Shown here: piece after piece, positions 26,782 to 34,911 of the stretch
How the letters are laid out: every line of letters starts with the position of its first letter
Numbering within the stretch: the first letter of the stretch is position 1
Assembly: GCA_900315255.1 (NCBI GenBank)
Contig: OMYH01000001.1
Location: 62,001 to 126,000 of the forward strand
DNA from: an uncultured Eubacteriales bacterium
GTDB lineage: Bacteria > Bacillota > Clostridia > Oscillospirales > Acutalibacteraceae
Direction of reading: 5' to 3'
Length of the DNA: 64,000 nucleotides
Translations under genes and position numbers: made by a program
Notes under the pieces: model-generated
What the model was told of the DNA's origin: nothing
The model's database searches: none
What the model saw: only the letters and a program-made list of their open reading frames with translations

Positions 26782-26814
26782 TTGACAAAATATTATAAAA
26801 GGAGGAAAAATCAA

Positions 26815-28233
26815 ATGTCCAAGAAAGTTATTAGTGTATTGCTTTCCGTGGCTATCGTGGCAACAATGCTTTGCGTTGGTGTTGGTATGCTGACAGCTTC
26901 TGCTGATACAGTTACATACTACTTCTTAGCTCCGGACAGCTATCTCACAACGAATGGCACAGTTGGTATCTACTACTGGCAGCCGAAGGAGCCCGCTCCG
27001 TGGCCGGGTGTTGAAATGACAAAGGCTGAGGATGTTGGTCACAACGTATTCGCAGCAACAGTAGGTGACAACGACGAAACAGAGACGATCATCTTCAACG
27101 CATTCGTTGACGCAGGCAACCCTGCAGACCCTGCTCTCGCAGCAGTTGCACATCAGACAGTAAATATCGATGTTAACGGTGACGCAAGTCATGAGAATTT
27201 CTACGGAATGATTTATGTTCTTGCTAACGATGACGCACACAAGTCTGTAAACGAGCTCTCAGGTGCAGTAACAGGCAGCGGCGCATGGTTCTCAATCGAT
27301 CCCGCATCAGATGAGTACTACAAGAACAGCAAGGAGTTCTACGGTTCTTACGGTTTCCCCGAGGAGAACCCCGAGGACGCAGCTAAGGAAGTTCATAAGG
27401 ACGATACAGTTAAGGTATCCCTTACACTTGGCGGCGTTGAGAAGGCTGGTACACTCACATCTTACATTAAGTTTGACAGCAGCCTGCTCAAGTACACAGG
27501 CAACAAGTCAACAACAGCTGACGGTCAGCTCCTCGTAAACGATACATTCGCAGAGGAAGACGATCTTAAGGATACACTCGTTGTTGGTGCAGTATTCGAT
27601 GCAGAGGGTACAGACGCTTACGCAGGTGCTCCCGCTGAGGTTTACACATTTGACTTCACAGCTCTTGCTAATACAACTCTTGCTGACGTAAAGGCTGCAG
27701 TTAGCCAGTTCGCAGAGGAGATCACAAAGATTTCCGGTCAGGATGTAGTAGACGTTTATACAAACTACAACCATATCGAAGAAGGCAACGCTTACTCGGG
27801 TCTTGCATTCGAAGTAATTTGCGAGCATAAGGACGAGTCAAGCTCAAAGACAAGCTCGACATCTTCAACAAGCTCGACAACATCTTCCAAGACAAGCTCG
27901 ACAACATCTTCCGAGACAAGTTCGACAACATCTTCAGATGCAGGCTCTTCAAGCACACCGTCTGATAACGGTTCTTCAAGCACACCGTCCAATAACGGTT
28001 CTTCAAGCACACCGTCCAATAACGGCTCTTCTTCTAAGGGTACATCTTCAACAGGTTCTTCTTCAAAGGCATCTTCTGCAAGCTCTAAGGCAGCAAGCTC
28101 TAAGGCAGCAAGCACAGCTTCTAACGGCAGTGCTATCCAGACTGCAGGTACATTCGCTATCGTATCTCTGGTAGTTGTACTCATGGCTGCAGCAGCAGTT
28201 GTTCTTTACTCAAGAAAGAAGACAGAGGAATAA
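26815..28233 (+). CDS. Scaffoldin-like surface protein 1: starch-binding-like and cohesin-like modules
   Basis: A 472-residue secreted, cell-anchored protein. It has a signal peptide (1-30, ending TASA|D). The N-terminal module (about 32-170) has YYFLAPDSY, then IYYWQPKEPAPWPGVEMTKA and IIFNAFVDAGNP, like CBM26-type starch-binding modules. A beta-sandwich at about 190-335 (DTVKVSLTLGGVEKAGTLTS, then YIKFDSSLLKYTG) resembles cohesins. A Ser/Thr-rich linker (about 337-430) leads to a C-terminal membrane segment and RKKTEE. This fits a cell-bound receptor that holds starch and dockerin enzymes. GGAGG supports ATG 26815, eleven codons into the longest frame. Module assignments are by eye. Confidence 0.78.
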   Translation: MSKKVISVLLSVAIVATMLCVGVGMLTASADTVTYYFLAPDSYLTTNGTVGIYYWQPKEPAPWPGVEMTKAEDVGHNVFAATVGDNDETETIIFNAFVDAGNPADPALAAVAHQTVNIDVNGDASHENFYGMIYVLANDDAHKSVNELSGAVTGSGAWFSIDPASDEYYKNSKEFYGSYGFPEENPEDAAKEVHKDDTVKVSLTLGGVEKAGTLTSYIKFDSSLLKYTGNKSTTADGQLLVNDTFAEEDDLKDTLVVGAVFDAEGTDAYAGAPAEVYTFDFTALANTTLADVKAAVSQFAEEITKISGQDVVDVYTNYNHIEEGNAYSGLAFEVICEHKDESSSKTSSTSSTSSTTSSKTSSTTSSETSSTTSSDAGSSSTPSDNGSSSTPSNNGSSSTPSNNGSSSKGTSSTGSSSKASSASSKAASSKAASTASNGSAIQTAGTFAIVSLVVVLMAAAAVVLYSRKKTEE

Positions 28234-28368: not shown

Positions 28369-29787
28369 ATGTCCAAGAAAGTTATTAGTATTGTACTTTC
28401 ATTAGCAATGGTAGTGGCAGTTCTTTGTGTTGGTTTCGGTGCAATCACAGCATCTGCTGATACAGTAACATACTACTTCCTTGCTCCGGAAAACTTTTTG
28501 TTAGCTGAAGGTTCAGGCGACAAGGTAGGTTATTACTACTGGCAGCCTTCTGAGGTTGCTCCGTGGCCGGGCGCTGAGATGACAAAGGCTCCCGAGGTTG
28601 GCGAGCGTGTTTACAAGGTAGAATGCGGCGACATGGACGAGACAGGCACAATCATCTTCAACGCATTCGTAGACGCAGGCAACCCTGCAGATCCCGCACT
28701 TGCAGCTGTAGCTCATCAGACTGTTAATATCAACACTGAGGGTTATATGAAGGGCGAGAGCACATTATATGACACACTTGACAACTTCTATGACATGATC
28801 TATGTTCTCTCTAACGCAGAAGAGGATAAGGCTGTTAACGAGTTCTCAGGTGCTATCACAACAAAGGGCGAATGGTTCTCTATCAATGCTACTGACGATA
28901 ACTACTACAAGGATTATCTTGATGAGACAGGTAACTACTGGGATAAGGTTGGCGGCAAAACAACAATCGTTTCCAAGGGTGATACAACAAGCTCAGACAC
29001 ACCGTCAGATAAGACATACCACAAGGGTGACAAAGTAACAGTTACTTTCTCCTTCGGCGGCGTTGATCCTGCAGGTACTCTCACATCTTTCGTAGACTTC
29101 AACAAGGATCTTCTCAAGTATGAAGGCAAAGAGAAGCTCGTTACAACAACAGGTACAGTTCTCGTAAATGACGACCTCAAGGCTGAGGACGGCATGGAGA
29201 GCAGACTTGGTATCGGCTGCGTATTTGATCCTACAGGTGAAGAGCACACATTTGCAGGCGACAAGGTTGCAATGTTCGCATTCACATTCACAGCTCTTGA
29301 CGATTTCAACGTTGAGGATCTCGGTATTCAGAGAGTAACAACAGAGATCACAACAATCAAGGACGACGACGTTGTTGACGTATTTGTAAACGACGACGCT
29401 ACTAAGGTTGTTGACGAGGCTTACACAGAGGTTAAGGTTGACGTTAAGTGCAACCACGAGCAGGAGAATCCTTCTTCAAGCGTAGCTCCTTCTTCATCTT
29501 CAGAGGCCGAGAAGCCGTCAAGCTCTTCTGAGCCTGAGAAGCCCTCTTCATCAGAGGCTGAGAAGCCCTCTTCAACAGTAGAGAGCAAGACATCTTCTGC
29601 TACATCTTCTAAGGCTACACCGGATGCTTCTAAGGCTTCTTCAAGCTCTAAGGCTGCATCAAATGCAAGCGGTTCAAATGGCACAGCTATCCAGACAGCT
29701 GGTACATTTGCAGTTATCTCGCTCGTAGTTATCCTTATGGCTGCTGCTGCTGTAGTTCTTTACACAAGAAAGAAGACAGAGGAATAA
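28369..29787 (+). CDS. Scaffoldin-like surface protein 2, paralogue of the preceding gene
   Basis: A 472-residue paralogue with the same order: signal peptide (1-30), starch-binding-like module (YYFLAPENFLL, then YYYWQPSEVAPWPGAEMTKA and IIFNAFVDAGNP), an inserted Asp/Thr-rich stretch, a cohesin-like module (DKVTVTFSFGGVDPAGTLTS, then FVDFNKDLLKYEG), a shorter linker (SSSEAEKPSSSSEPEKPSS-like) and the same membrane anchor (VVILMAAAAVVLYTRKKTEE). The start and stop regions are nearly identical to the first copy, so this is a recent tandem duplication with later divergence, especially in the linkers. GGAGG precedes the ATG. Confidence 0.78.
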   Translation: MSKKVISIVLSLAMVVAVLCVGFGAITASADTVTYYFLAPENFLLAEGSGDKVGYYYWQPSEVAPWPGAEMTKAPEVGERVYKVECGDMDETGTIIFNAFVDAGNPADPALAAVAHQTVNINTEGYMKGESTLYDTLDNFYDMIYVLSNAEEDKAVNEFSGAITTKGEWFSINATDDNYYKDYLDETGNYWDKVGGKTTIVSKGDTTSSDTPSDKTYHKGDKVTVTFSFGGVDPAGTLTSFVDFNKDLLKYEGKEKLVTTTGTVLVNDDLKAEDGMESRLGIGCVFDPTGEEHTFAGDKVAMFAFTFTALDDFNVEDLGIQRVTTEITTIKDDDVVDVFVNDDATKVVDEAYTEVKVDVKCNHEQENPSSSVAPSSSSEAEKPSSSSEPEKPSSSEAEKPSSTVESKTSSATSSKATPDASKASSSSKAASNASGSNGTAIQTAGTFAVISLVVILMAAAAVVLYTRKKTEE

Positions 29788-31350: not shown

Positions 31351-32220
31351 ATGTTCAAGAAAATTCTCAGTATAGCTTTGGCTATTACTATGGTTGCAGC
31401 ATTATTCTGTGTTGGTGCCCTTTCAGCAAGCGCCGATGAGGCAGTTCATGCAGGCGATCAGGTCAGATATGTCTTTTCTATCTCTCCTCTCACAGATGTT
31501 GGCGGTCTGACTGTTTATTCAAACTATGACGCATCTAAGCTTACCTATGTAAGTTCAGAGTATGTTTACCCCGATGGTATGGGTGCTGTCAACGATCTTA
31601 ATGCAGGTTCAGTAAACTGGAATGACACATTTGCACAGGGTCTTAACACAAGCAACACCGATATTTTTGCCGTTACTTATAATGTTATTGCTGACGGTGA
31701 TGTTTCCGGTCTCGGACTTTTTTATAACTGCATTGAGCTTTTCGATGTAAATGCTATTGATATCCCCGGAGATTTCAACTCGCTTGTTAACGCAAGAGTT
31801 GAGGTTATTCATAATGAAACAACAGATAGCGAAGATACAGATTCAGAACCGCAAACAGAAGTTGATACAGATTCCGGTGAAACTTCCTCAACTACATCTT
31901 CAGAGGTAAGTTCGACAGTTTCTTCTAATACTTCTTCATCTACATCTTCAACACCTAAGAAGGACACACCCGATACATCCAAGCCGACATCTTCGACCAT
32001 TTCAACTCCGGGTTCCACATCAAGTGTAACATCTTCGAATGCGTCTTCAAGCGCTGCATCGTCATCAAAGCCCGCTTCAAGTTCGAAGGCAAGCAGTACA
32101 TCGTCTACTGTACCCGCTGTTAAGACTGCCGGTACGGTTGCGATTATCTCTCTGGTTGTCGTACTTATGGCAGCTGCCGCTGTAGTATTCTTCAGTAAGA
32201 AACACTCTGCCGAAGAGTAA
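31351..32220 (+). CDS. Single-module cohesin-like cell-anchored protein
   Basis: A 289-residue protein related to the two paralogues at 26815 and 28369 but without the starch-binding-like module. It has a signal peptide (1-27, ending ASA|D) and one cohesin-like beta-sandwich (about 30-155; VHAGDQVRYVFSISPLTDVG, then GLTVYSNYDASKLTYVSSEY). A long Ser/Thr linker (about 160-245) follows, then a C-terminal membrane segment. The architecture fits a surface-bound dockerin acceptor. GGAGG and a strong promoter precede it. Cohesin identity is by pattern of strands and hydrophobic positions. Confidence 0.75.
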   Translation: MFKKILSIALAITMVAALFCVGALSASADEAVHAGDQVRYVFSISPLTDVGGLTVYSNYDASKLTYVSSEYVYPDGMGAVNDLNAGSVNWNDTFAQGLNTSNTDIFAVTYNVIADGDVSGLGLFYNCIELFDVNAIDIPGDFNSLVNARVEVIHNETTDSEDTDSEPQTEVDTDSGETSSTTSSEVSSTVSSNTSSSTSSTPKKDTPDTSKPTSSTISTPGSTSSVTSSNASSSAASSSKPASSSKASSTSSTVPAVKTAGTVAIISLVVVLMAAAAVVFFSKKHSAEE

Positions 32221-32328: not shown

Positions 32329-32435
32329 TACTCTTAAAATATCACTATATAATATTGACATAAACCCCAAATGCATTTATAATTAAGAATATAAGGTATT
32401 TCTTTCTTTTATCATTTACTTTTGGGGGAATAGTT

Positions 32436-32675
32436 ATGACAGATTCTATTTTGTCCGTAAAGACAAACAGCCTGATCGAAAGAGTATGGGAAATCATGAC
32501 AAACAGCAGCTCTTATTTTGAGAGTATGGGGACGAATGTAGATGAGATCATATTTATCTACAACGAATTATGCAGGTGCAGTAAGCAGATAAAGACCTGT
32601 GACAGTGAGCAAGAATATTCTCGGATTGAGGATAAAGTTCGTATGTGCGAAAAGCAAGTGAATAGCTACATTTAA
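32436..32675 (+). CDS. Small hypothetical protein
   Basis: A 79-residue probable helical protein (MTDSILSVKTNSLIERVWEI, ending YSRIEDKVRMCEKQVNSYI) with several cysteines in the middle (ELCRCSKQIKTC). No family is recognised. GGGGGAATAGTT precedes the ATG. It faces the end of the HIRAN/J-domain operon across a shared terminator. Confidence 0.6.
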   Translation: MTDSILSVKTNSLIERVWEIMTNSSSYFESMGTNVDEIIFIYNELCRCSKQIKTCDSEQEYSRIEDKVRMCEKQVNSYI

Positions 32676-32679
32676 ATAA

Positions 32680-32704
32680 ATGCACCCAAAACGGGTGCAT
32701 TTTA
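32680..32704. terminator. Bidirectional terminator
   Basis: AATGCACCC and GGGTGCATT pair around AAAAC, with a T run on the + side. It ends both the small + strand gene and the Sel1/J/HIRAN operon. Confidence 0.85.
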
Positions 32705-33097
32705 ATAATCTATCAGGAAAACATTGATCCTGATCTTAATAAAGCTATCATCAATGGGACAGTACTTAGTGATTCTTGCATTTAGTTTTTTTCCTGCGTC
32801 CATCAGACGTGAAAGGATAGGATTATCTCTTTCGGGGATATATCCGATTTTCTTTTTTGTAGGCGATAACACAAGAATAGCTTTTTCGTCGAACTTGTTG
32901 TTCTCTCTTTTTAGCGGCAGAACATCGCCCGGTTTTAACCCATTGAAAACGCTTCTGTCATTGATATAGGATGTGCCTGCTACAAATGTTTCTAACAGAA
33001 ATATCTCCTTGATAAAAGGCTGCAGCAGATCGTTTGTACTTATATCTGAAGCCAGCAGTTTCAGTTGTTCATCTTTAACAGAGAGTTCAAAGCTCAT
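32702..33097 (-). CDS. HIRAN domain protein
   Basis: A 131-residue protein whose C-terminal two thirds are a HIRAN domain: VAGTSYINDRSVFNGLKPGD, then LPLKRENNKFDEKAILVLS and KIGYIPERDNPILSRLMDAG. In HLTF the HIRAN domain binds 3' single-stranded DNA ends; bacterial stand-alone versions are mostly uncharacterised. It is the last gene of an operon, and its start overlaps the previous stop by one base. Confidence 0.88.
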   Translation of the reverse strand: MSFELSVKDEQLKLLASDISTNDLLQPFIKEIFLLETFVAGTSYINDRSVFNGLKPGDVLPLKRENNKFDEKAILVLSPTKKKIGYIPERDNPILSRLMDAGKKLNARITKYCPIDDSFIKIRINVFLIDY

Positions 33098-33864
33098 TAA
33101 GGAATCACTCCAGTCATTAAATACCCTGTTAGTACTGATCTCAGTCGTTCAAGATAAAGTTCGTATTGTTTGATCTCAGATCGGAGTTCATGTTTTAACT
33201 CATTCTTTGCGATCGGATCGACCAGAATGTTTTTATATGAGTATGGTTCGGTTGTTATTATTTTATTGATCTCCGACTGTAGCTGCTCCGATCTTTCGGT
33301 TATATCCGGTATGCTGATTTTTGTATTATCTACGCCCACAGCAGTTAAAGCAGCGTTTGCCAATATAACAAGATCTTCAAGCTCTTTCAAGTCGGCGCAT
33401 TTATAGGCCGTCGAGATTCTGGTCCAAAGATCTGCAAACCAAGGTTCTTTCTGAAGTTCGGGGTTTAGGTCGGGGTGGAGCTGCCTGGCTAATTTGCGGT
33501 ATAATTTCTTGATTTTCAGATTGTCTTCCTTTGAAATATGTTCAAGCTGTCTGCAGTTCTCGTTATCCTTCACCATTTGCTTCAGGAGTTCGTTATACCC
33601 ATTCATTTCAATGTCAATAAAGTCGTTGAGCTCGGACAGATTTATTCTTTCTCCTCGGTTTTCTCTCACTTGACAGAAGGCTATTGATTTTTTTGTAGAT
33701 ATAATGGTGACCTCGAGCTTGAATTTCTCCACCAGTAAATCGCCGAACTCGTGGATGTACAGCGTGAGATACTCATCAGCTTCTTTCAGCAAAGCATCTC
33801 GTTCAAGTAAGAGGAGTTCATATTGTTTGTATGCAGAATTGTTATCAGTTTTTATTATCTCCAT
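33097..33864 (-). CDS. J-domain protein
   Basis: A 255-residue protein with an internal J domain (about 110-160): NLKIKKLYRKLARQLHPDLN, containing the HPD tripeptide that stimulates Hsp70. It has long helical, probably coiled-coil regions on both sides (LLLERDALLKEADEYLTLY; NELKHELRSEIKQYELYLER). There is no G/F or zinc domain of classic DnaJ, so it is a class III-type co-chaperone. Its start overlaps the upstream Sel1 gene by 20 bases. Confidence 0.87.
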   Translation of the reverse strand: MEIIKTDNNSAYKQYELLLLERDALLKEADEYLTLYIHEFGDLLVEKFKLEVTIISTKKSIAFCQVRENRGERINLSELNDFIDIEMNGYNELLKQMVKDNENCRQLEHISKEDNLKIKKLYRKLARQLHPDLNPELQKEPWFADLWTRISTAYKCADLKELEDLVILANAALTAVGVDNTKISIPDITERSEQLQSEINKIITTEPYSYKNILVDPIAKNELKHELRSEIKQYELYLERLRSVLTGYLMTGVIP

Positions 33865-34744
33865 TTATTATCACCTCGTAAAAAACAAGCTCGGTAAATA
33901 ATTCTGTGAGCATACTTTTGTTTATTGATGATTGAGAAAAGAATGCATCTATATTTTGGTACCACTTTCCGTTAAACACGATCGGGAATGCGCCGTCCTC
34001 CGACATTATAATGATCTCGAACTCCTCCGATCGGTACTCAAACCTTACTGTACATGGTGTTTTTTCGAGAGCGTAAAGGTCGTACAGGTCGAAGTAGTCA
34101 TAGTCAAATGGCGTTATCTTGTAAAGGTCATGAATCAGATGCTTCATGATAGAGAGATTGCCAAAAAAATTACTGTAAATCAGTCGGCGGGCAAGAAAAG
34201 CTTTCGCATAGTAATATAGCGCTATTGCTTCGTCTAAGTTACCTTCCTTGACTCTTATCGAAGCTAAACGAGTATATATCTCCGGTACAGGTTTGAAAAG
34301 ATTGAGTTCGTCTTTGATCTGAACGTACAGCTTTTCAATTATTGACTTATATTTGTCGTAGTCCTTTTCAACAAAGTATCCGTTCTTATACATATCTGCA
34401 ATCTTATATTCCGACTGAATATTTCCGAGGACTGCCGATCTCTGAAAATAGCCAAACGCTTTTTCATAGTCTACCTTACCGGTTCTTCCGTAATACCAGA
34501 TGTAACCGAGACCCGACATTGCCGGCTCATAGTTTAAACCTGCTGCGATCTCATAACATTTGAGTGCATTGTCAAACAATCTCATCTCGTAGTAGTATCC
34601 GCCTAATTCGGTGATGTAGATCGGGTCTTTAGTTTCGTTCCAAAGGTACTCCAGGTATTCTGTATACCTGAAGTCCTCTTCATCTGTATGCATTTCGGCA
34701 TTATTATACTGTTCCAAAAAACTGATAGCTGTTTTTTTATCCAT
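33845..34744 (-). CDS. Sel1/TPR repeat protein
   Basis: A 299-residue protein with Sel1-like repeats (about 45-150): PIYITELGGYYYEMRLFDNA, then PAMSGLGYIWYYGRTGKVDY and IQSEYKIADMYKNGYFVEKD, followed by a TPR-like hairpin (GNLDEAIALYYYAKAFLA). The C-terminal third is a separate beta-rich region (TVRFEYRSEEFEIIIMSEDG). Sel1 repeats are protein-binding adaptors. It is the first gene of a three-gene operon with overlapping J-domain and HIRAN genes, which points to a shared complex. Confidence 0.87.
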   Translation of the reverse strand: MDKKTAISFLEQYNNAEMHTDEEDFRYTEYLEYLWNETKDPIYITELGGYYYEMRLFDNALKCYEIAAGLNYEPAMSGLGYIWYYGRTGKVDYEKAFGYFQRSAVLGNIQSEYKIADMYKNGYFVEKDYDKYKSIIEKLYVQIKDELNLFKPVPEIYTRLASIRVKEGNLDEAIALYYYAKAFLARRLIYSNFFGNLSIMKHLIHDLYKITPFDYDYFDLYDLYALEKTPCTVRFEYRSEEFEIIIMSEDGAFPIVFNGKWYQNIDAFFSQSSINKSMLTELFTELVFYEVIINGDNKN

Positions 34745-34883: not shown

Positions 34884-34911
34884 TACCCCCACCGATCACT
34901 CGATGGGGGTT
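34884..34911 (-). terminator. Terminator of ppdK
   Basis: On the minus strand ACCCCCATCGA pairs with TCGGTGGGGGT, followed by ATTTATTT. Confidence 0.75.

Follow-up and report, generated by a model that had tools for sequence, protein, structure and literature searches.

Adjacent genes for a protein carrying a J-domain motif (hereafter J) and for a HIRAN protein recur across dozens of distantly related bacteria, and together they are the conserved unit of a small operon in the window, i.e. the whole 64,000-nucleotide stretch of DNA, from a gut-type bacterium, that was analysed. The first-pass annotation, made from the letters alone, had described a three-gene operon of Sel1-repeat, J-domain, and HIRAN proteins. 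This operon is real and conserved, but its core is formed by the last two genes, while the Sel1-like gene that precedes them (hereafter SEL) is optional and limited to one clade. We tentatively interpret the operon, with somewhat less than even confidence, as a horizontally traded accessory module whose J–HIRAN core would bring DnaK to a DNA structure or nucleoprotein, likely to defend against, or to manage, replicating DNA that is foreign or damaged.

The three minus-strand genes overlap in series, by 20 bp between SEL and J and by 1 bp, at a TAATG junction, between J and HIRAN, and a strong hairpin then closes the operon (Table 1). Coordinates, strand, and both overlaps agree with those first annotated, and each of the three genes is preceded by a Shine-Dalgarno-like stretch of its own. 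The terminator that had been proposed to end the operon is likewise borne out by folding: on the minus strand, the hairpin 3' of HIRAN reaches -15.6 kcal/mol (z -3.8, lower than every shuffle) and is followed by a U-rich tail. Folded on the plus strand, the same hairpin reaches -15.1 kcal/mol (z -4.7), and it is symmetrical enough to work as a terminator both ways. A simple terminator consensus scan did not list it, and an Rfam search of the operon region returned no match. G+C content is 37-40% in the operon, lower than in the window overall (43%) and in PPDK (51%).

Table 1. Features of the operon and its surroundings, in window coordinates.
Feature	Position	Strand	Description
SEL gene	33845-34744	minus	299 aa; optional upstream partner
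J gene	33097-33864	minus	255 aa; core component
HIRAN gene	32702-33097	minus	131 aa, stand-alone domain; core component
Terminator-like hairpin closing the operon	32677-32704	both directions	common to the operon and a convergent small ORF
Terminator after PPDK	34885-34910	minus	-21.3 kcal/mol, z -4.7; separates PPDK from the operon
79-aa ORF	32355-32675	plus	convergent on the operon; uses the common terminator
Secreted protein 1	26782-28233	plus	
Secreted protein 2	28369-29787	plus	
Secreted protein 3	31351-32220	plus	

The convergent 79-aa ORF has a sigma-70-type promoter (TTGACA-17-TATAAT, 12/12) and matched no Pfam family above cut-off. The flanking region also includes three look-alike secreted proteins, each with linkers rich in Ser/Thr and a membrane segment at the C-terminus.

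A first scan of genome contigs returned seven loci, from Oscillospiraceae, Ruminococcus, Ruminiclostridium, and two rumen MAGs labelled Chloroflexi, and gene order was the same in most of them. Full members of the J family numbered about a dozen across 394 genomes of the order and 30 across 391 of the class, with three more in 300 genomes of the phylum; most matches of the first J search (E-value 0.001) were ordinary DnaJ proteins and were left out of these counts. Neighbourhood conservation had been suggested as a check on the original annotation, and here it is clear-cut: close relatives of J were found in 22 of the 391 Clostridia genomes, with HIRAN directly downstream in 21 of the 22 and a contig end in the remaining one. 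HIRAN occurs once in the source genome and in 70 of the 391 Clostridia genomes, and the co-occurrence of J and HIRAN is therefore above background (Fisher p 1.7e-18 across these 391). When 503 neighbouring ORFs were grouped into BLAST clusters, J was recovered at 37 loci, HIRAN at 33, SEL at 11, and an AAA+ ATPase at three, with no specific recurrent partner beyond these four; the remaining clusters were generic ABC ATPases and other small groups. Distances between J proteins and between HIRAN proteins are correlated (r 0.82; r 0.55 and 0.84 when each main clade is taken separately; Mantel p < 0.001 in every case), a pattern which also mirrors the common ancestry of the locus and is no proof of contact. 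In genome G749, the contig carrying J and the one carrying HIRAN were examined as split neighbours, and no overlap was found between them. At locus L043 (8140-8940), a 266-aa gene of unknown kind lies between J and HIRAN.

The HIRAN protein matches PF08797 with E=1.1e-12 and 48 bits (cut-off 24.7) over profile positions 2-91 of 96, the domain occupying residues 33-126 behind an N-terminal extension in which K/R-P and E/D-I are conserved. Its relatives in the PDB are human HLTF (26 bits) and 3k2y (L. plantarum lp_0118, 62 bits), the latter being the best solved relative and also an uncharacterised, stand-alone bacterial HIRAN. Aligned to HLTF, pocket residues N90, N91, Y93, and D94 correspond to N66, N67, F69, and D70 of the window protein. 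Across 38 HIRAN proteins, invariant residues are R64, N67, D70, N92, R97, D100, G102, and K103, and thus include the positions of N91 and D94, while the N90 position is mostly Asp and the Y93 position is F, Y, or H. A second invariant motif (N92 with R-L-M-D-A-G-K) lies outside of the N91/D94 segment. At the positions of HLTF R71 and Y72, the window protein has S43 and Y44 and the family has mostly T/S and H/Y/F, with His predominating at the second; this register is presumptive and draws in part on the 3k2y alignment. In HLTF, stacking on the DNA involves Y72 and Y93, and the HIRAN point mutant that was made to disable the site is NN90,91AA (PMC4666394).

With Ser/Thr apparently in the place of R71 and mostly His in that of Y72, the 3'-OH binding mode of HLTF may not apply to the operon HIRAN. 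Yeast Rad5 provides a precedent, as its HIRAN domain binds ssDNA without needing a 3'-OH and also binds PCNA (PMC7804152), and DNA-end binding by the operon protein is therefore no more than likely. The 3'-end binding originally proposed for HIRAN is hence backed by the N91 and D94 equivalents, but weakened by R71, by Y72, and by Rad5. The operon protein has the HIRAN fold and these two residues in common with HLTF and Rad5, but it is a separate polypeptide with no SNF2 or RING domain, and prokaryotic HIRAN domains are otherwise uncharacterised (PMC11090510).

These residues also bear on an alternative in which HIRAN binds a protein and not DNA, in the manner of Rad5 with PCNA, J–HIRAN then being a co-chaperone that takes DnaK to one client and SEL a second client arm. 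The Rad5 precedent, the altered R71 and Y72 positions, and the second invariant motif are all consistent with this, as is the general observation that Sel1 and TPR solenoids usually have proteins as ligands. Against it stand the invariant equivalents of N91 and D94 and the use of the NN90,91AA mutant to disable the HLTF site, and we consider this alternative unlikely, if still deserving of attention.

The preferred reading, a traded module that would bring DnaK to DNA or nucleoprotein, also draws on genomic setting. The J gene was found in three of 22 genomes of the genus, and alleles of sister species are 41-49% identical, whereas PPDK is 95% identical. The site after PPDK, where the window has the operon, holds an AlwI restriction enzyme and a D12 methylase in one sister species (L204, 1797-4347) and a Ser/Thr kinase cluster in another. 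Phage defence is favoured by this patchiness, the divergence of alleles, and the insertion site. The same three features speak against a purely chromosomal repair or replication-restart aid with no defence role, in which HIRAN would locate broken ends or forks that have stalled, for DnaK to clear the stalled replisome, a core repair function being expected to be kept more evenly. Such an aid would fit the role of eukaryotic HIRAN domains in fork remodelling (PMC4666394) and the absence of J from phage and plasmid collections, but we hold it to be quite doubtful. The J protein had no match in phages, plasmids, or viral contigs; HIRAN alone was matched, distantly, by two plasmids and seven phage records, and the one such plasmid whose context was viewed had no J gene annotated.

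Some J–HIRAN copies lie beside defence-type genes (Cas12a, Cas1c, BrxL, SoFic, an HNH nuclease, and PDC-S27). Cas12a adjoins an AAA+–J–HIRAN operon (L049, 4661-8473), and Cas1c is found with a Cas2-like gene near another locus (L039, 10889-12213), this Cas1 gene, ~2 kb from its locus, having been put into the test list by hand. A control set of 119 genes, taken from arbitrary segments of these genomes, had none of these defence types but did include a few PADLOC candidates. Many J–HIRAN copies adjoin ordinary genes, and the defence-gene neighbourhood is, given a comparison this small, suggestive and not decisive. No defined PADLOC system was matched by the operon: the best PADLOC match of HIRAN was PDC-M03B, over the HIRAN part only, J had none, and that of SEL was weak. 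We presume that PDC-M03B may equal HipN/HipL, to which we return below.

Contact with DnaK, the other half of the preferred reading, would depend on the J protein. Its Pfam DnaJ match (E=4.8e-6, profile positions 13-51 of 63) is just under cut-off and covers helix II-HPD-helix III of the model alone, and among PDB sequences it matches J domains, with CbpA first. An AlphaFold2 model (pLDDT 90) predicts a long helical hairpin (residues 6-69 and 76-105), a core of helices 112-129, 141-155, and 159-176 with HPD at 130-132, and a C-terminal coiled coil (188-252). The model has no separate helix I, and hence no full four-helix J domain; the end of helix 76-105 could substitute for the missing element. 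A Foldseek search with this model returned coiled-coil noise only and no meaningful relative. HPD is nonetheless present in the window protein, and it is kept without exception by the 35 HIRAN-linked J proteins counted in the main clades A and B (i.e. outside of the AAA+ clade described below). All 35 also have a basic K/R three residues upstream of HPD, in a family whose overall identity falls to about 20-25%. The source genome encodes one clear DnaK elsewhere, and we read the invariance of HPD as probable selection for Hsp70 contact wherever the AAA+ partner is absent.

The J domain that was originally expected to recruit Hsp70 thus retains its motif but is non-canonical, being short, embedded in a long coiled coil, and without an evident helix I. 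Helix II-HPD-helix III is common to class C J-domain co-chaperones and CbpA, but in the window protein the J region sits between long coiled coils without an evident helix I, and none of the known C-terminal substrate domains was matched. One could instead regard the J region as a structural relic with no use for Hsp70, in a coiled-coil protein that merely scaffolds HIRAN and a variable partner, as the missing helix I and the HPA, HPQ, or HPE found in side branches would allow; with HPD and the upstream K/R kept throughout the two main clades, we find this improbable. The first-pass annotation had named two observations that would count against it, namely that the three genes fail to recur together elsewhere or that the end-binding residues of HIRAN are absent. 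Neither is the case, because the operon is conserved, with J–HIRAN recurring widely and SEL in one clade only, HPD is kept in 35 of 35 proteins, and the N91 and D94 equivalents are kept in 38 of 38.

The side branches differ in their partners. Clade B has J–HIRAN without SEL. Operons of a third clade (L047, L049, and L050) consist of an AAA+ ATPase, J, and HIRAN, and their HPD is changed to HPA or HPQ. According to Pfam, the AAA+ partner contains AAA plus AAA_lid_6 domains; a TerB domain, also considered for this protein, was dropped as it had no Pfam support. The coupling of HPD loss with the AAA+ gene is a single event, and it counts once because it is confined to one clade. In this clade, the AAA+ ATPase perhaps takes the place of DnaK/Hsp70. 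J relatives of family f51 (L120-L125 and L127) have HPE and no HIRAN, and are preceded by two genes of ABC transporter size (two were checked by Pfam). Two genes of ~580 aa beside these HIRAN-less J relatives had been considered as Hsp70s, and were rejected as ABC transporters.

SEL matches the Pfam Sel1 family under cut-off (E=1.3e-5), with one clear repeat and a weak TPR signal. Its AlphaFold2 model (pLDDT 93) predicts an alpha-solenoid (residues ~3-226) and a C-terminal alpha/beta domain (~231-293), and the best PDB folds retrieved by Foldseek with this model are the Sel1-repeat proteins 6ok3 and 6ork (E~1e-6), a predicted fold match that would place SEL among Sel1-repeat alpha-solenoids. 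The Sel1 label first given to this gene is therefore upheld for the solenoid by the AlphaFold2 and Foldseek results, though not by the Pfam cut-off, and it had missed the C-terminal domain. SEL is confined to one clade of J (clade A, 100/100 support), within which it was lost several times: of the 15 rows of this clade, 10 have a full SEL and one more has a remnant, and in these 11 loci SEL is directly upstream of J, usually overlapping it or a few bases apart. All full-length SEL matches in the class are in the operon except for one orphan and one at a contig end. That SEL is a passenger and J–HIRAN alone the system would fit the lack of SEL at most J–HIRAN loci, the one orphan, and the weak correlation of SEL–J distances (r 0.36). 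Against this, 11 loci of a fully supported clade retain it just upstream and nearly all full-length matches in the class are in the operon, and we consider a passenger role highly improbable. The orphan, a SEL-like gene of genome G525 (L186, 5415-6338), adjoins a WYL-type-regulator-like ORF, in a genome with no J or HIRAN matches. In L102 and L109, upstream genes were considered as diverged SEL candidates and rejected as not SEL. At clade A locus L002 (603-3764), a single protein with protein kinase, NB-ARC/STAND-like, and TPR parts is found in the place of SEL upstream of J–HIRAN.

Operon structure, gene adjacency, motif conservation, predicted folds, and patchiness were computed, and from these we infer a contact between J and HIRAN, the binding of DnaK and DNA, and a purpose. 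In the preferred reading, J would be a scaffold of elongated coiled coil, with a short J region that contacts the DnaK of the cell through HPD. HIRAN, probably bound to J, would target the complex to a DNA structure (a 3' end or a single strand, for example) or to a protein–DNA complex located there, and DnaK with ATP would then remodel or remove the proteins bound at the target. In the clade of the window, the Sel1-like protein may act as a protein-binding arm that aids target choice; other clades would do without this arm, or have an AAA+ ATPase that perhaps substitutes for DnaK. The purpose would be defence against, or handling of, foreign or damaged replicating DNA. A bolder version, which we regard as rather unlikely in its entirety, is that of an immune or genome-guarding system in which HIRAN, as a reader of DNA ends, and J together make host Hsp70 a targeted nucleoprotein disassembler, and in which the third part is interchangeable (Sel1-like protein, STAND kinase, or an AAA+ ATPase replacing Hsp70).

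The nearest systems in concept are HipN/HipL and the Hsp70/DnaJ conflict systems, and the operon is without the defining parts of both. HipN/HipL are HIRAN-containing kinase toxin-antitoxin modules proposed as sensors of invader DNA ends (PMC8262856). They likewise have a prokaryotic HIRAN in a small operon, but here both the HipS-like domain and the HipA-type kinase are missing: the 131-aa protein is HIRAN alone, its neighbours are J and SEL, and its partner is J, which sets it apart from HipN-type modules. GAP1-N2 conflict systems contain HSP70, GrpE, and DnaJ-domain proteins, and the text describing them does not mention HIRAN (PMC7159879). Hsp70/J modules thus have a precedent among bacterial conflict systems, but the operon has neither a GAP1-N2 GTPase nor an Hsp70 of its own. 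A literature search, with most subscription journals outside of its scope, found no paper on the J–HIRAN pair, and the initial statement that no characterised system is known to combine these parts stands, the nearest concepts lacking matching parts. There is a real chance that J–HIRAN, although built from known parts, is a new system, and a dedicated adaptor for directing bacterial Hsp70 to DNA ends is not known to us. Overall, the conserved J–HIRAN pair provides a concrete, testable partner both for prokaryotic HIRAN, which has no known function, and for the targeting of Hsp70, and, if the AAA+ variant truly replaces Hsp70, it would represent an example of one scaffold swapping its motor.
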